Assembly: GCF_022818495.1 (NCBI RefSeq) | Contig: NZ_CP089291.1 | Span: 1,272,501-1,336,500, forward strand | From: Fodinisporobacter ferrooxydans | GTDB taxonomy: Bacteria > Bacillota > Bacilli > Tumebacillales > MYW30-H2 | DNA: 64,000 nucleotides | Direction: 5' to 3' | Shown here: piece after piece, positions 16,615 through 23,947 of the stretch | Numbering within the stretch: position 1 is the stretch's first letter | How the letters are laid out: every line of letters starts with the position of its first letter | The notes under the pieces: generated by a model | Told to the model about the DNA's origin: nothing | Seen by the model: only the letters and a program-made list of their open reading frames with translations | The model's database searches: none | Made by a program: the position numbers and the translations under genes

Positions 16615-17475
16615 ATGTGGCAGACAGGGGACGTAGTAGTGCGGAAGTCATACGGCAGGGACTTATGTTTTCGCATTGTCGAAATCGATGAGACTTCTGA
16701 GTCTGCTACGCTCAAAGGCATTGATGTTCGGCTAATGGCGGATGCACCATTAGAAGATCTTGAGATCGTTACGCAAGCGGATCGGGCTTTATACCAGGCC
16801 CCGTACAGAAAAGAGGAGAGCGATACATTACGGGTCATTCGTCAGGAACGGTTGTTGGAGCATGAAAAACGTGCATTAAAAATTGAAAGCAAATACCGAG
16901 GAGTAGAAGATTTTTTCGAGCGGCCCGGTCAAGTTCTCCATTTAGACGGTGATGGAGAATATTTGAATAAATGTTTGAAAGTATATGGGGAATTGGGAAT
17001 CCGGGCAGTCGGGCATCATGTTCAAGAGTCAGAGATGGCCATACATTTATTGGAGTTGCTGGAAGTCTATAGCCCTGATATTTTAATTTTGACGGGGCAC
17101 GATGGTGTTTTACGAAAAGGGCAGGATTTAAGCAATGTATATAATTACCGAAATTCAGAACATTTTATAAAAGCAGTAAAAATCGCCAGAAAATTCGAAC
17201 GAAGTTTTGATGATCTTGTCATTTTTGCAGGCGCCTGCCAGTCTCATTATGAAGCGCTGCTAGGTGCCGGTGCCAATTTTGCAAGCTCCCCGCATCGAAT
17301 TTTGATTCATGCTCTTGATCCGGTATTGATTGCGCAAAAAATTGCGTTTACACCCATTAACCAAACGGTAAATATTTTCGATGTCGTTAAATCGACGATT
17401 ACAGGTACAGACGGTTTGGGTGGAATCGAATCGAGAGGCAAGTATCGAATCGGCTTGCCGCGCTCACCGTATTAA
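16615..17475 (+). CDS. yabG: Sporulation-specific protease YabG
   Basis: Peptidase family U57 protease made in the mother cell late in sporulation; in B. subtilis it processes coat proteins such as SpoIVA, SafA and YeeK to permit cross-linking. The 286-residue protein opens with GDVVVRKSYGRD and contains LHLDGDGEYLNKCL, ILTGHDG and VIFAGACQSHYEALL, the region carrying the proposed catalytic His and Cys. ATG 16615 follows GGGGGAAC. Late mother-cell expression would require a sigma-K promoter; I could not identify a convincing one. Confidence 0.93.
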   Translation: MWQTGDVVVRKSYGRDLCFRIVEIDETSESATLKGIDVRLMADAPLEDLEIVTQADRALYQAPYRKEESDTLRVIRQERLLEHEKRALKIESKYRGVEDFFERPGQVLHLDGDGEYLNKCLKVYGELGIRAVGHHVQESEMAIHLLELLEVYSPDILILTGHDGVLRKGQDLSNVYNYRNSEHFIKAVKIARKFERSFDDLVIFAGACQSHYEALLGAGANFASSPHRILIHALDPVLIAQKIAFTPINQTVNIFDVVKSTITGTDGLGGIESRGKYRIGLPRSPY

Positions 17476-17566: not shown

Positions 17567-17590
17567 TTTACGTGGAAAGAGGTGGTGTGT

Positions 17591-17869
17591 GTGTCAAAAA
17601 ACGCACTAAGCGAAATCAAACGTAATCTTGAGGGCTTTGTTGGTGAGAAGATTATGTTACGCGCCAACGGTGGCCGCCGAAAGACGATCGAACGCACTGG
17701 AGTACTTGAAGAGACATATCCCTCAGTCTTTGTAGTGAAGCTTGACCAATCGGACAGTTCCTTTAAACGAGTTTCCTACAGTTACGCCGATATCCTTACG
17801 GAAACTGTGGAATTAACGGTTTGCAAGGATAATGGTGGACATATTCGCATCACCTATGTAGAGCATTAA
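17591..17869 (+). CDS. veg: Veg protein
   Basis: Small highly expressed protein conserved in Bacillota; in B. subtilis it stimulates biofilm matrix genes by countering SinR and has been linked to spore outgrowth. The 92-residue product holds the family core [22 protein letters not shown] and [16 protein letters not shown]. Of several in-frame GTG codons, 17591 is chosen because AGAGG lies 8 bp upstream and length fits. Two consensus promoters precede it and a terminator follows. Confidence 0.95.
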
Positions 17870-17935: not shown

Positions 17936-17967
17936 AAGACGTCTTGGAAAAGGCGTCTTTTTATTTT
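17936..17967 (+). terminator. Terminator after veg
   Basis: AAGACG with CGTCTT, inner CTT with AAG, then TTTTTATTTT. Confidence 0.8.
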
Positions 17968-18025: not shown

Positions 18026-18214
18026 ATGGCACGACGTCGAGGAATCATGTCAGAACAATTTAAAGTTGAACTGGCCAAGGATTTGGGATTCTATGATACC
18101 GTGCAGCAAGAAGGTTGGGGTGGCATTCGAGCAAGGGAAGCCGGTAACATGGTGAAACGCGCCATTGAATTGGCGGAACGCGCGCTTGCGGAGCAATCCC
18201 AATCGAACACATAG
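18026..18214 (+). CDS. sspF: Small acid-soluble spore protein, SspF type
   Basis: Alpha/beta-type SASP relative; such proteins bind and protect spore DNA. The 62-residue product starts MARRRGIMS and has [26 protein letters not shown] and KRAIELAE, matching SspF closely. The start at 18026 follows AAAGGAG with a long (12 bp) gap; a start at 18014 would touch the ribosome site. Expected to be forespore-specific; no confident sigma-G box was seen. It lies after veg as in B. subtilis. Confidence 0.93.
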
Positions 18215-18234
18215 ATGGATTCTCCTAAAGGCGT

Positions 18235-18269
18235 AAGGGGCTTATCAAAAAGGGTAAGCCCCTTTTTTA
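18235..18269 (+). terminator. Terminator after sspF
   Basis: AAGGGGCTTA pairs with TAAGCCCCTT, then a T6 run. Confidence 0.92.
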
Positions 18270-18396
18270 GCGTATATCGGATGCATATTTTGAGGCAAGA
18301 TGGCAACGCTTTATAGTAGCTTTTTATTTTTTGTTTTACCTTTTATTCATGTCGTATTGACAAAGAGAATTTAGCTTATTCCCTAAGGGGGCACGT

Positions 18397-19245
18397 TTGG
18401 ATTTGAGCCAAGTAGAGGGAACATTAGTGATCATTGGAGGAGCTGAAGACAAAAAAGGAAATTGTGATATTCTGCGAGAATTCGTCAAGCTCTCAGGGAG
18501 CAAACATGCTCGAATTTTAGTGATAACCGTTGCGACTGAATTGCCGATCGAAGTAGGGAATCAGTATATTGAAGTGTTTCAGAGAATTGGGGTTGAAGAT
18601 GTTCGGGTGCTCGATGTTTCCAATCGGGATGCTGCCAATTCTCCAAGTGCTGTCCAGCAAATTGAAAATGCAACAGGTGTGTTTTTTACAGGAGGCGATC
18701 AAATCCGCATCACGACATTGCTTGGAGGAACGCAAATTGATGCGGCATTACACAAAGGCTTGGAAAAAGGCATGGTATTGGCTGGAACAAGTGCCGGTGC
18801 ATCCATGATGAGCAGTACGATGATTGTAGAAGGAACCGGGGAAACCAATCCGAAAATCGGTATTGTCGACATGGCGCCAGGAATGGAGTTTATTCGTGGT
18901 GTTGTAATTGATCAGCATTTCGCACAAAGAGGTCGTCTAGGCAGATTATTATCGGCAGTTGCCCAATATCCCCATCATCTCGGGTTAGGTATTGACGAAA
19001 ATACAGCGGTTGTGGTAGAGGGTCTATCCTTCCGGGTGATTGGTGATGGAGCGGTCAGTGTAGTAGACGCTGGAAGCTTGGTGTATTCGAATCTGCCCCA
19101 TTTAAGAAAAGATGACGATCTGGCTTTGTGTGGAATAAAACTGCATATTTTGCCTGCCGGATACCGATTTCATTTACGAGATCGAATGCCCATTTTAGAT
19201 GGGGATGAGGATTCTAAAAGAGAAGGTAACAGGGAGTTGAAGTGA
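18397..19245 (+). CDS. cphB: Cyanophycinase
   Basis: Serine exopeptidase (family S51) that releases beta-Asp-Arg dipeptides from cyanophycin. The 282-residue protein has GTLVIIGGAEDK at the N-terminus, FFTGGDQIR, the nucleophile motif GTSAGASMMS (Ser at about residue 132), and the downstream DQHFAQRGRLGRL typical of the family. TTG 18397 follows AAGGGGG. The stop overlaps the cphA start by 1 nt (TGATG), so the pair is translationally coupled. Having both genes indicates an Arg/Asp storage polymer that can be made and mobilised. Confidence 0.92.
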   Translation: MDLSQVEGTLVIIGGAEDKKGNCDILREFVKLSGSKHARILVITVATELPIEVGNQYIEVFQRIGVEDVRVLDVSNRDAANSPSAVQQIENATGVFFTGGDQIRITTLLGGTQIDAALHKGLEKGMVLAGTSAGASMMSSTMIVEGTGETNPKIGIVDMAPGMEFIRGVVIDQHFAQRGRLGRLLSAVAQYPHHLGLGIDENTAVVVEGLSFRVIGDGAVSVVDAGSLVYSNLPHLRKDDDLALCGIKLHILPAGYRFHLRDRMPILDGDEDSKREGNRELK

Positions 19246-21893
19246 TGAGAATCGCTGAGATTCGGTCGATTCCAGGCCCGAATATTTATATATATAAACC
19301 TGTAATCGTCATGCGATTACATTTGGAGGAATTAACAGAGAAAGAAAGTATCGAATTTCCAGGATTTATCGAGCGTTTATTAGAGGCTCTCCCAGGTGTG
19401 CATAATCATCATTGTGCGAAGGGAAAACCCGGAGGATTTATCGAACGTCTATATGGAGGTACATATTTTGGACATATTGTTGAACACGTCTGTTTGGAAT
19501 TAACGGAATATGCCGGTTTCCCTGCGCACTTTGGCAAAACTCTTTATGCAGGGGGACCTGGCATTTATGATGTAATCGTAGAGAATAAAGCGGAAGAAGC
19601 GACCAAATTTCTTTTGCAAGTGGCTGTAAAATTTGTCGAAGCATTACTCCATGGATATGAATATCCGCTTTATGAAGCAATTGAGAAAGCGAAACGCATT
19701 GCTTGTGAATCTGAGCTGGGACCCAGTACAAGGGCGATTGTGGAGGCGGCCGGGCAGCGCGGAATCCCGGTGTATCGATTGAATCATGATTCCCTTGTCC
19801 AACTCGGAACGGGTTGTTATGCAAAACGAATTCAGGCGACAATTACTGAACAATCCAGTTGTATTGCTGTTGATATCGCATCAAATAAAGAACTTACCAA
19901 GACGTTGCTGGAACGGGCAGCCATACCTGTACCCGCTGGTGGAATTGCCCGCTCGGAAGAGGAGGCAATGCGAATATTCGCATCTTTGCAGGCAGCGGTT
20001 GTCGTTAAGCCACTTTCTGGCAGCCAGGGTAAAGGTGTTTCGACGCAATTAGAGACAACGTCAGATGTGAGACGGGCGTTTCAGATTGCACAGCAATATG
20101 GAAATGAAACTGTAGTCGAGCAATTTTATCCGGGGCGAAACTATCGTCTCCTGCTCGTAAACAGCAAACTGATTGCCGGATCGGAGCGGATACCCGCGCA
20201 TGTCATTGGCGATGGCATTCATTCCATTGGCCAATTGGTTGAAATCGTAAACGAACAGCCGGAGCGCGGCGTCGATCATGAAAAGCCATTGACGAAAATT
20301 ATGATTGATCCTGTAGTCGTCAGTTATTTGACAAAACATGGACGGCGATTACAAGATATCCCGAAGGCAGGGGAAATTGTATATTTGCGTGAAAGTGCAA
20401 ATTTAAGTACAGGCGGAATTGCCATTGATGTTACAGATGAGATCCATCCGGAAATTCGCAAAATGGCAGAACGTGCCGCACGGGTGATCGGATTGGATGT
20501 ATGCGGCATCGACCTGGTTGCGGAGGATATCACAAAGTCAATTGACTGTCAATCTATAGCGATTATTGAAGTCAATGCGGCACCGGGAATCCGCATGCAT
20601 CATTTCCCGAGTATTGGTGAAAAACGAGATGTAGCGGGAGCGGTGGTGGATGCTTTATTCCCCAAAGGAACTCCCGCACGAATTCCGACTGTTTCGATTA
20701 CAGGAACAAACGGAAAAACGACAACGACACGCATGATTGGACATGTCATGCAGAATGTGACTGGCAAAACAGTTGGAATGACAACAACCGATGGGATTTA
20801 TATCAACGGAGAAAGAATTGCCAAAGGCGATACGACCGGACCGCGCAGTGCCCGTATTGTCCTTGAAGATCCAAGTGTCGAGATCGCTGTTTTGGAAACG
20901 GCGCGTGGCGGAATTGTTCGATCCGGTCTGGGATATGATTGGGCAGACGTTGCCGTTCTTACAAATATTTCACCTGATCATATCGGTCAAGACGGCATCG
21001 AGGAAATTGAAGATTTGGTGCATATTAAATCCTTGGTGGCAGAACGGGTGAGATCTGGCGGTACGGTTATTTTAAATGCGGAGGATCCCAATTTAACGGC
21101 TTTGGCCAAACGATTGAAACAGCAAACCATCGTTTATTTTAGCTTGGATAAGGATCATCCGGTTGTAAAGAGGCACCTATCCATCGGCGGCACATGCTTT
21201 TATAAAGATGGAGATTGGCTGGTAGAAGCATCAGGCAGTGTTCAATGGAAAATCATGCATGCGGGAGAAATTCCCGTCACCATGTATGGTTTGGCACAAT
21301 TCCATATCGCCAACGGATTGGCGGCGGCGGCAGCTTGCCGGGCTCAAGGGATCACTCGGGAAAAGATTGCGCAAGCTCTTGGCACGTTTTCCAACAACCC
21401 GGGACGGGCCAATTTCTATAAGGTCAACAAAGGGTATGTATTGGTGGATTATGGACACAATCCGGATAGTTTTAAAGCCATTTGCAAAATGGCAGGTCAG
21501 CTGCAGGGACGCCGAATTACAGGTGTTGTCGGTGTTCCTGGCGATCGAAGTAACGCAATTGTGGAAGCATCCGCTCGTGTGGCTGCCGAAGGATTTCATA
21601 AATTGCTGATTAAAGAAGATATAGATACACGGGGACGGGAACGCGGGGAAATTGCCTCGATCCTATTTGAAGTTGTCCAACAATTCGTACCGTACCGGGA
21701 ATGCAAAGTCATTTATAATGAATGTGAGGCTTTGGATACAGCGATTCGTGAAATGATTCCGGGGGAACTTGTCGTAATCTTTTACGAAAAATTGCAGCCA
21801 GTCAAACAGGTTCTGGAAAATTGGAAAGCTGTACAGGTGGAAAGTTTGGAGGATGTTTCACCGATTGAGACTGTATCAGCGAGTCAAGTATAA
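19245..21893 (+). CDS. cphA: Cyanophycin synthetase
   Basis: Polymerises aspartate and arginine into cyanophycin with ATP. The 882-residue product is full length for CphA. In order: an N-terminal domain with GPNIYIYKP and KPGGFIERLYGGTYFGHIVEH, an ATP-grasp domain (about 180-440) with VVKPLSGSQGKGV and IEVNAAPGIRMHHFP, and a Mur-ligase-like domain with the P-loop GTNGKTTTTR at about residue 487. An ATG at 19245, AGGGAG 8 bp upstream, is the start. Terminator at 21903. B. subtilis has no cyanophycin genes; here they replace its interval between sspF and ispE. Confidence 0.95.
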   Translation: MRIAEIRSIPGPNIYIYKPVIVMRLHLEELTEKESIEFPGFIERLLEALPGVHNHHCAKGKPGGFIERLYGGTYFGHIVEHVCLELTEYAGFPAHFGKTLYAGGPGIYDVIVENKAEEATKFLLQVAVKFVEALLHGYEYPLYEAIEKAKRIACESELGPSTRAIVEAAGQRGIPVYRLNHDSLVQLGTGCYAKRIQATITEQSSCIAVDIASNKELTKTLLERAAIPVPAGGIARSEEEAMRIFASLQAAVVVKPLSGSQGKGVSTQLETTSDVRRAFQIAQQYGNETVVEQFYPGRNYRLLLVNSKLIAGSERIPAHVIGDGIHSIGQLVEIVNEQPERGVDHEKPLTKIMIDPVVVSYLTKHGRRLQDIPKAGEIVYLRESANLSTGGIAIDVTDEIHPEIRKMAERAARVIGLDVCGIDLVAEDITKSIDCQSIAIIEVNAAPGIRMHHFPSIGEKRDVAGAVVDALFPKGTPARIPTVSITGTNGKTTTTRMIGHVMQNVTGKTVGMTTTDGIYINGERIAKGDTTGPRSARIVLEDPSVEIAVLETARGGIVRSGLGYDWADVAVLTNISPDHIGQDGIEEIEDLVHIKSLVAERVRSGGTVILNAEDPNLTALAKRLKQQTIVYFSLDKDHPVVKRHLSIGGTCFYKDGDWLVEASGSVQWKIMHAGEIPVTMYGLAQFHIANGLAAAAACRAQGITREKIAQALGTFSNNPGRANFYKVNKGYVLVDYGHNPDSFKAICKMAGQLQGRRITGVVGVPGDRSNAIVEASARVAAEGFHKLLIKEDIDTRGRERGEIASILFEVVQQFVPYRECKVIYNECEALDTAIREMIPGELVVIFYEKLQPVKQVLENWKAVQVESLEDVSPIETVSASQV

Positions 21894-21902
21894 CTTATAA
21901 AA

Positions 21903-21930
21903 AGGGGCGCCCTACATGGCGCCTCTTTTT
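21903..21930 (+). terminator. Terminator after cphA
   Basis: AGGGGCGCC pairs with GGCGCCTCT (one G-T pair), then TTTTT. Confidence 0.9.
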
Positions 21931-22215
21931 GCGTTGCTTTGCAAATGTTTTATGAATACATTGTACGGCAACTTTCCGCTCCATAGTGTACGAAACAAAT
22001 TCAATATTCGTTTGTTGTATGAATCTGTCAATGAATGCATAAAAAGGATTAGACAGAAACAAATCAAACCATGTAGAATCATAAGGAAACAGATGTAGAA
22101 TTTGCTATCCTTTGTTGAAAATATGCTAATCTATAGTGGATGTATGAAAATGATACATAGTGTTGGAGTTGCAGACGTATTTAATAATCTTGAGTAAGGA
22201 GGCATCGATGGATTT
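21931..22215. other. AT-rich intergenic region with a possible promoter
   Basis: No gene seen. The only signal is a plausible sigma-A promoter, TAGACA (22050-22055), 18-bp spacer, TAGAAT (22074-22079), that could serve the downstream membrane protein gene. Confidence 0.4.
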
Positions 22216-23049
22216 ATGGACCAGTCCTTTACCAGAAATCCTTTATTGCAATCCGTTCTTTATCATTCATTTACAAAGGCATGTAAAGAGTTGGGATATG
22301 AGCAAATACAGGACAGTGCGATTTCCAAAGATCTTTGTATATATTTGCGGCAAGAAATAGAGTCATTTCCCGAGCAAAATGAAGAAGCAAGGAAATTGCT
22401 TATACTTGCGATTCGTTCCGGGGAAGTGATTGCTACCGAAATGACTCGAAATGGGACAAGCAGCCTGCTGATTCGCTGTGAAGTTGCAAAAGTCCTTGTG
22501 GATGTGCGGCTATATTACGAGCGTGGAATTTGGCAAGTAGCGGGTATTCTATCGATTCATTCAAGGCCTTTTCTAAAATACAAGAGAAGCAGGAAAGCGA
22601 TTGGAGTGGTCGCTGCCGTTTTTGTATTGGGATTGGGCATTCTGGTTGGTAGATTTCTGCCCACAAATCTGAATATTCAGCAGTATGCAAAAGATCATGG
22701 ATATGTCCTGTTGACGGTAGCGCAAGAGCAGAATTTGATGAAAGATCTGGGAGGAGCCAATTCTGCTGTCGCTGCCGCATCTGGCGCAGCAACACAGCCT
22801 GGGAGCTCTCATGATGTTGCAGCAAGCGGGGCTATTACTTTCACCATGCAACAAGGCATGGGTACACAAGATCTCACCGATTTTTTATTGAAAAATCATC
22901 TAATAAAAAACGGGGCCGAATTTAATCAAAAAATGGAGACTCAGCAATTGGATCGTACAATACAACTGGGCACGTATACGTTTGCGAATACGATGACGGA
23001 AGACCAGATCCTGCAGACGATTAAACAGGGGCCGCATTCGCATGCATAA
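22216..23049 (+). CDS. Membrane protein with C-terminal MltG N-lobe-like (YceG-like) domain
   Basis: Not a recognised named gene. The 277-residue protein has a cytoplasmic N-terminal region of about 115 residues, one membrane segment (IGVVAAVFVLGLGILVG, about 128-144), an Ala/Gly/Ser-rich linker and a C-terminal domain resembling the N-terminal part of endolytic transglycosylase MltG: QGMGTQDLTDFLLKNHLI, LGTYTF, DQILQTIKQG. No MltG catalytic domain is present. The ATG at 22216 lies 13 bp from AAGGAGG; another ATG at 22208, better spaced, is out of frame and yields a short peptide. The in-frame stop at 22195 excludes a longer start. It may be an exported peptidoglycan-related protein, by inference. 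Confidence 0.7.
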   Translation: MDQSFTRNPLLQSVLYHSFTKACKELGYEQIQDSAISKDLCIYLRQEIESFPEQNEEARKLLILAIRSGEVIATEMTRNGTSSLLIRCEVAKVLVDVRLYYERGIWQVAGILSIHSRPFLKYKRSRKAIGVVAAVFVLGLGILVGRFLPTNLNIQQYAKDHGYVLLTVAQEQNLMKDLGGANSAVAAASGAATQPGSSHDVAASGAITFTMQQGMGTQDLTDFLLKNHLIKNGAEFNQKMETQQLDRTIQLGTYTFANTMTEDQILQTIKQGPHSHA

Positions 23050-23092: not shown

Positions 23093-23947
23093 ATGAGGTT
23101 GCTGATCGAAAAAGCGAAAGCAAAAATCAACCTCACCCTCGATGTGAAATATAAACGTTCCGATGGATATCATGAAGTGGAAATGATCATGCAGACGGTG
23201 GATTTGTATGATCGCCTGGTATTTCAAGAACGGGAACGAGATGAAATCGTGTTGACCTGCAATATGCCATATATCCCTTTAGACGATCGGAATCTGGTCT
23301 ATCGAGCAGCAGAATTGATCAAACGGGAATTTGCTATCCATAAGGGCATTCACGTGCATATTGAGAAGAAGATCCCTGTTGCGGCCGGATTAGCAGGGGG
23401 ATCGAGCGATGCCGCAGCAACATTGAGAGGGTTAAATCAATTGTGGCAATTGGGCGCAACATATGAAGAACTTGAGAATGTGGGAGCTTCGATCGGATCG
23501 GATGTTCCGTTTTGCATTCGAGGCGGTACGGCTGTTGCGCGAGGTCGAGGAGAAATACTGGAACATCTGCCGATACAACCGAATTTTTGGGTGATTCTGG
23601 CCAAATTGCCGATTTCCGTATCTACAGCTGAAGTATATCGAAAGTTGAATATCCAATCAATTGCCGATCACCCATCGGCAATTGGGATGATTCATGCTTT
23701 AAAATCGGGGGATATTCAACAAATCTCCGGTTGTCTCGGAAACGTATTGGAATCGGTGACGTTCGAAATGCATCCGGAAGTTGCAGTTTTGAAAAACCAG
23801 TTCTTGAAATTTGGAGCACCAGGTGTATTGATGTCGGGAAGCGGGCCAACGGTTTTCGCCATCACAGATCGCGAGGCGAAGGCTGTTCGAATCTATCATG
23901 CAATACGAGGATATTCAAGAGATGTATTTTTAACCCGCTGTTGGTAA
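23093..23947 (+). CDS. ispE: 4-diphosphocytidyl-2-C-methyl-D-erythritol kinase
   Basis: GHMP kinase of the MEP isoprenoid pathway. The 284-residue protein has AKAKINLTLDV at the N-terminus, the ATP-binding PVAAGLAGGSSDAAA (about 95-109) and a C-terminal MSGSGPTVFAI. ATG 23093 has a weak GTAGGT site. It lies upstream of purR as in B. subtilis. The short direct repeat TTGGTAAAAAT occurs just after its stop and again 40 bp later. Confidence 0.95.
   Translation: MRLLIEKAKAKINLTLDVKYKRSDGYHEVEMIMQTVDLYDRLVFQERERDEIVLTCNMPYIPLDDRNLVYRAAELIKREFAIHKGIHVHIEKKIPVAAGLAGGSSDAAATLRGLNQLWQLGATYEELENVGASIGSDVPFCIRGGTAVARGRGEILEHLPIQPNFWVILAKLPISVSTAEVYRKLNIQSIADHPSAIGMIHALKSGDIQQISGCLGNVLESVTFEMHPEVAVLKNQFLKFGAPGVLMSGSGPTVFAITDREAKAVRIYHAIRGYSRDVFLTRCW

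Follow-up and report, generated by a model that had tools for sequence, protein, structure and literature searches.

The 64,000-nucleotide stretch of the Fodinisporobacter ferrooxydans genome analysed here (contig NZ_CP089291.1, positions 1,272,501 to 1,336,500 of the forward strand; hereafter the window) carries cphB and cphA, a cyanophycinase and a cyanophycin synthetase gene whose match pattern is too specific for chance. We conclude that cphBA probably forms a self-contained cyanophycin operon, inherited by vertical descent, whose transcription in spore formers of the Bacillota is driven mainly in the forespore by a promoter of the sigma-F/sigma-G type. This reading draws on intact genes, catalytic residues, gene order, co-occurrence and a promoter motif, all read from sequence, from which we infer forespore expression, polymer formation and use on germination. 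The operon and its boundaries consist of the following features (window coordinates):

18397 to 19245, + strand: cphB, cyanophycinase (peptidase family S51), 282 amino acids, TTG start
19245 to 21893, + strand: cphA, cyanophycin synthetase (CphA1 type), 882 amino acids, ATG start
18385 to 18391, + strand: ribosome-binding site AAGGGGG of cphB, from sequence
about 18235 to 18264, + strand: intrinsic terminator of sspF, between sspF and cphBA, a 12-pair stem followed by a U run
21898 to 21931, + strand: intrinsic terminator 3' of cphA, at the operon end, 14 pairs

Both open reading frames (ORFs) are intact, and the cphB stop overlaps the cphA ATG by one base (a GTG at 19242 is an alternative cphA start). 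Folding gave −22.5 kcal/mol for the sspF terminator (18225-18275; z score −4.13) and −22.7 kcal/mol for the cphA terminator (21890-21940; z −4.83), and with a hairpin on either flank cphBA appears as an independent transcription unit. The cphB leader gave no structure signal (folding z 0.21), and an Rfam scan around the operon returned zero elements at the gathering threshold. Coordinates and folding agree with the initial annotation of this DNA, which had described an intact two-gene operon with a one-base overlap and a strong terminator.

Family assignments were based on the NCBIfam curated cut-offs (126.6 bits for cphB with TIGR02069, 850 bits for cphA with TIGR02068), and both products scored far above them, in line with the earlier description of a full-length CphA plus a cyanophycinase. 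CphB matched the cyanophycinase model TIGR02069 with 319 bits and PF03575 with 84.8 bits, and aligned over its full length with the solved cyanophycinases 7uqv (264.5 bits), 3en0 (174.6 bits) and 7uqw, being nearer to 7uqv than to 3en0. The nucleophile serine is residue 132 within GTSAG and aligns with the serine of the solved enzymes (7uqw has Ala there), while the histidine of DQHF is found at 174; the GTSAG serine and DQHF are common to the window enzyme and to 7uqv and 3en0/7uqw, and no functional difference was seen.

CphA scored 1174.3 bits with TIGR02068, covering positions 1-860 of the 862 of the profile, and displayed the domain order N, ATP-grasp G and Mur-ligase M (PF18921 at 23-135; RimK, PF08443, at 212-316; Mur_ligase_M, PF08245, at 485-698; Mur_ligase_C, PF02875, at 720-845). 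The three domains are shared, over the full length of the protein, with the CphA1 enzymes SuCphA1 (7lg5) and Thermosynechococcus TeCphA1 (7wac), as are the N-domain Cx19HxxEH site, the G-domain substrate and Mg ligands and D585/H586. We mapped the catalytic residues on 7lg5 (E 5e-219; 356 identities over 813 mapped positions) and compared them across 101 Bacillota CphA sequences, the window included. In the G domain, K261, R309, S396 and E450 of 7lg5 are all kept as K255, R301, S388 and E442, and in the M domain K499, D585 and H586 correspond to K491 (P-loop), D578 and H579, which are invariant in 101/101 sequences. The window protein has Val in place of Trp672, a residue that SuCphA1 requires to form its tetramer. 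The N-domain zinc site consists of C57, H77, E80 and H81, and the Cys and both His residues occur in 99 of the 101 sequences, with gaps in the other two. The Cx19HxxEH motif is described in PMC9262961, according to which CphA2 is devoid of it, and the presence of the site suggests primer-independent synthesis. A CphA2 identity was rejected for the window synthetase on the same motif. Elsewhere, a CphA on Deinococcus deserti plasmid 1 (L212) lacks the N-domain zinc site and is predicted to be primer-dependent.

Conservation of the locus was assessed relative to the genes flanking the operon:

16615 to 17475, + strand: yabG, sporulation peptidase, conserved upstream neighbour (TIGR02855, 371 bits, cut-off 270)
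17582 to 17869, + strand: veg, conserved upstream neighbour (NF046033, 146.5 bits, cut-off 135)
18027 to 18214, + strand: sspF-like gene for an alpha/beta small acid-soluble spore protein (SASP), upstream neighbour (PF00269, 27.7 bits, cut-off 22)
23093 to 23947, + strand: ispE, downstream neighbour conserved across Bacillota (TIGR00154, 304 bits)

The ATG at 18027 of sspF, a gene that is syntenic in relatives, was picked by eye, and a longer frame starts at a TTG at 17966. The initial annotation had placed cphBA between sspF and ispE. Both neighbours were verified, but a 277-amino-acid ORF (22216-23049) additionally separates cphA from ispE; it shows weak YceG/MltG similarity over its last 70 residues, and the corresponding position in the 17 syntenic Bacilli yielded no homologue.

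Conservation of the sspF-cphBA-ispE order had been proposed earlier as a check. Of 20 Bacilli loci that were fetched, 17 keep sspF-cphB-cphA-ispE, accompanied upstream by veg in 17/17 and yabG in 16/17 (the yabG of G001 would fall outside the fetched stretch). An eighteenth Bacilli locus (G010) is a contig fragment in which cphA-ispE is visible, and in the remaining two (G030 and G023) cphBA is located elsewhere and is just 40-45% identical. The G023 CphA (L056), outside the ispE region, is split over two frames, suggesting a frameshift or an assembly error. Within the order examined, CphA was present in 14/14 genomes, split across two contigs in one of them. A homologous-locus search of the genome contigs with the window CphA returned a sole match, a Mur-ligase at 23%. 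Among 80 loci sampled across the phylum, cphB lies directly upstream of cphA in 77 and ispE within 400 bp downstream in 64, a count in which L047 was scored as unlinked through an over-long ORF start, the link being seen in the Bacilli locus comparison. A CphA tree (FastTree, with long branches; the fragment or outlier rows L056, L057 and L167 were left out) placed the window with 17 other Bacilli rows at a support of 100, and the ispE linkage, present in 85 of 98 rows, needed three changes on it, which argues that the chromosomal address was inherited and is not a recent insertion. The earlier statement that B. subtilis has no such genes also held, as no TIGR02068 match was obtained for it at 1e-150 in the control panel; this absence is best read as a loss. 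In 28 loci outside the Bacilli (e.g. L146:4067-5677), a protein of about 540 amino acids with a LysM-like repeat at its end is encoded upstream of cphB, possibly a SPOCS-type spore protein as judged by eye.

CphA also co-occurs with the sporulation marker SpoIVA. In a sample of 398 genomes of the phylum, CphA was found in 123 (119 over the cut-off) and SpoIVA in 335; SpoIVA was present in 119 of the 123 CphA-positive genomes vs 216 of the 275 CphA-negative ones (Fisher 5e-7, in a test that ignores shared ancestry). The four CphA-positive genomes without SpoIVA have completeness values of 75, 61, 90 and 72%. A sigF gene is present as well.

Upstream of cphB, an alignment of the loci revealed a conserved GNATA...GGG-ARACT-like block, and we compared these regions with six B. 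subtilis sigma consensus types. The sigma-F consensus reached a z score of +2.12 in the 17 Bacilli and +1.45 in 63 further loci. Sigma-G followed with +0.91 in the further loci, where the remaining types were at most +0.33; in the Bacilli the other types ranged from −0.01 to +0.22. The sigma-A, E, K and H consensus types were unenriched upstream of cphB in the Bacilli and in the other loci. The upstream regions of ispE, used as a control, gave a sigma-F z of +0.15, while the controls from sspF, yabG and veg held just 6, 1 and 2 anchored loci and were not relied on. With a fixed threshold (at least 10/11 sigma-F or 10/10 sigma-G positions), matches were obtained at 42 of 84 loci vs 3.3 in shuffles. 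The 42 loci represent 16 of the 34 families, 19 loci have a perfect match, and all but four of the matches (38) fall in one narrow distance range; the 84 were the loci scored out of 101, the rest having no anchor motif or a short upstream region. At the same loci, the upstream regions of ispE, glmU, prs, pth, purR, yabG and ksgA yielded no perfect match and counts at about the shuffle level. The motif was found again in held-out loci, at 13 of 31, where shuffles averaged 0.74 and reached at most 3 in 50, and in 10 of 15 families, many of which had already been seen (40 loci were fetched, 4 without cphB, 4 without an anchor and 1 too short). A consensus-free count of 5-mers pointed to the same element: GTATA at the promoter position ranked top after ribosome sites (13 families vs 1.2 expected), and GCATA occurred in 8 families vs 1.3 expected. 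The following elements were located upstream of cphB in the window:

18272 to 18303, + strand: candidate forespore (sigma-F type) promoter GTATA-N17-GGCAAGATGG, 10/11 consensus positions
18283 to 18311, + strand: overlapping candidate GCATA-N14-GGCAACGCTT, 9/11
18290 to 18317, + strand: sigma-A-like match TTGAGG-N16-TATAGT, overlapping the candidate forespore promoter

A putative forespore-type promoter is thus strongly supported at the level of the clade and moderately so in the window genome. Some families depart from the common arrangement. In f98 (L092-L094, L096), cphBA lies away from ispE, yet a perfect sigma-G type GTATA-N18-CATACTA is kept, indicating that the promoter outlives synteny. 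By eye, a terminator-like hairpin followed by a sigma-F −10 (GGNNANANTR) with a poor −35 was seen in f70 (L097, L101, L102, L106) and f122 (L104, L107, L108). In f125 (L148, L152, L154, L184), cphB directly follows yabG in three loci, L184 being placed there by its similar upstream region; the forespore motif is missing from this family, sigma-E gave a mild signal (z +1.3), and its cphBA expression may have shifted to the mother cell.

An alternative explanation is that cyanophycin is an ordinary vegetative nitrogen or energy reserve under sigma-A, the sporulation neighbourhood being merely an old chromosomal address. The sigma-A-like match in the window and the housekeeping nature of the neighbours ispE, purR, glmU, prs and pth are in line with this, as is the report that growing Clostridium ljungdahlii cells alter their granules and cphB expression and induce arginine deiminase (PMC13241827). 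However, the regions upstream of cphB are enriched for sigma-F but not for sigma-A (sigma-A z +0.22 in the 17 Bacilli and +0.03 in the 63 others), and CphA is almost restricted to SpoIVA-bearing genomes, so that we regard a vegetative reserve as quite improbable.

Following an earlier suggestion to look for an isoaspartyl dipeptidase elsewhere in the genome, we found IadA with 519.9 bits, above its cut-off, which makes the cyanophycin pathway complete; IaaA (PF01112) was not found in this genome. The proposal that a basic amino acid decarboxylase could use the released arginine was not supported: the gene at 2330/2354, which adjoins tmk, is a real member of its family but fell far short of every substrate-specific model (107.6 bits against a cut-off of 968) and has no assignable substrate, and two arginase-family genes elsewhere in the genome are at least equally good candidates. 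In the 398-genome sample, IadA occurred in 61 of the 123 CphA-positive vs 21 of the 275 CphA-negative genomes, which revises, in a broader sample, the gap left by a published value of 10.1% of 179 Firmicutes CphA1 genomes with an isoaspartyl dipeptidase (PMC10206079). A conserved peptidase neighbour was considered as a general source of this activity and rejected, as none stood beside cphB among the neighbour clusters read; the clustering covered about 8 kb around each of 101 oriented loci (100 fetched and the window) and recovered housekeeping and sporulation genes. Judged from coordinates, one family (f49; L118, L119, L120, L122, L185) has an iadA-cphB-cphA cluster away from ispE, and here only (five genomes) does iadA lie directly upstream of cphB, bringing synthesis, depolymerisation and dipeptide hydrolysis together.

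The breakdown genes also bear on a second role in the spore, in which cyanophycin, instead of being a food store, would give the forespore its shape as a matrix or as material associated with the membrane. Such a role in spore assembly, with an effect on normal spore morphology, is reported as possible for the Clostridium perfringens cyanophycin synthetase (Liu et al. 2016, cited in PMC5532821), and a forespore promoter fits it equally well. However, the presence of a cyanophycinase gene in the operon and the co-occurrence of IadA point towards amino-acid recovery, and we consider an assembly role unlikely.

The favoured reading, a forespore store, would work as follows. Forespore RNA polymerase would transcribe cphBA, and CphA would build cyanophycin using ATP, its G domain adding Asp and its M domain Arg, and would probably prime itself via an N domain that resembles a zinc peptidase. 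CphB, translated from the shared transcript, would free beta-Asp-Arg dipeptides that IadA would split. Through these two enzymes Asp and Arg could return later, plausibly at germination, alongside use of the SASP store, which is degraded at that stage. The likeliest purpose would be to provision the forespore for outgrowth with nitrogen, carbon and energy in insoluble form, in parallel to the SASPs. The initial annotation had proposed a cyanophycin store for sporulation or germination; gene order, SpoIVA, the forespore-type promoter and IadA support and extend the tie to sporulation, while storage for germination stays an inference.

Several observations weigh against this reading. A single transcript for synthetase and hydrolase leaves the temporal separation of synthesis and breakdown unexplained, and a clear forespore promoter was not found for the iadA of this genome (best 9/11). 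The threshold match was lacking in 18 of the 34 first-set and 5 of the 15 held-out families; f61, with the motif in 0 of 11 loci, f125 and f49 are without it. In the window promoter the spacer is long and the sigma-A-like match overlaps it; its distance to cphB exceeds that in most relatives by about 60 bases, and a score of its quality arises in about 4% of shuffled upstream regions (3.3/84). The shared ancestry behind the Fisher test belongs here as well. Finally, the P-loop of the G domain reads GSQGKG in the window CphA vs GNHGRG in 7lg5 and 7wac, placing Gln261 at the position of His267, where Ala inactivates or impairs characterised enzymes (PMC9262961, PMC9427784).

Active-site changes in CphA had been named at the outset as a way to overturn a functional operon, and one such change is indeed present, but the other catalytic positions are kept and Gln is usual at this site in Bacillota (93 of 101 sequences, window included, with 6 His, 1 Glu and 1 gap). 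Since Gln is conserved across the phylum in otherwise intact genes, it is likely a lineage variant and not decay. The same residue could mean that the Bacillota CphA no longer produces standard cyanophycin, being either a remnant or the source of a different Asp-based polymer, as all four characterised enzymes in the alignment retain His and so do 7 of 8 copies on plasmids of other phyla. This is very improbable given that the remaining checked catalytic positions are intact, the gene is unbroken and has a cyanophycinase partner, and Gln is conserved rather than drifting; in addition, going by a title cited in PMC5532821, polymer was obtained with a recombinant synthetase of Desulfitobacterium hafniense. 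A CphA on a Chryseobacterium plasmid (L215), from the Bacteroidota, combines a Bacillota-like P-loop Gln (GNQGRN) with an altered N site.

Links between cyanophycin and sporulation have been described for single groups. In segmented filamentous bacteria, cphAB-ispE lies beside a ger operon and a role in germination was proposed (PMC9482736). The cph-ispE adjacency is common to these bacteria and the window, whereas the window neighbours are yabG, veg and sspF; that paper treats one group, and its passage on this cluster reports no promoter. C. ljungdahlii forms granules and has cphB among its up-regulated sporulation genes (PMC13241827), and a link between cyanophycin and spores in C. perfringens goes back to Liu et al. 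2016 (cited in PMC5532821 and PMC13241827). Cyanophycin metabolism is tied to sporulation in both clostridia, as we propose for the window, but these are single-species studies, of expression in C. ljungdahlii and, by its title, of the spore membrane proteome in C. perfringens, while gene order, co-occurrence and promoter are compared here across Bacillota. Cyanophycin gene clustering was analysed in PMC10206079. Among the matches listed from the open-licence literature, no report of a forespore promoter or a phylum-wide address for cyanophycin genes was found.

Overall, these results suggest a nutrient store of spores that is old and widely shared but missing from B. subtilis. We give an even chance to the further proposal that cyanophycin synthesis is an ancestral forespore part of the Bacillota endospore programme, carrying the Gln P-loop variant, with an address (sspF/ispE) and a sigma-F/G promoter that predate the split between Bacilli and the other classes, and that several lineages, among them that of B. 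subtilis, have lost it. The model organism would then have hidden a second protein-like nutrient store besides the SASPs. The main model of sporulation, B. subtilis, is without cphBA, and a vague idea now becomes testable. If true, the forespore reading would offer a use for a gene pair found in about 30% of the sampled Bacillota (119/398 over the cut-off), and should filling of the forespore with cyanophycin be common among spore formers, the picture of the supplies with which a spore restarts would change.

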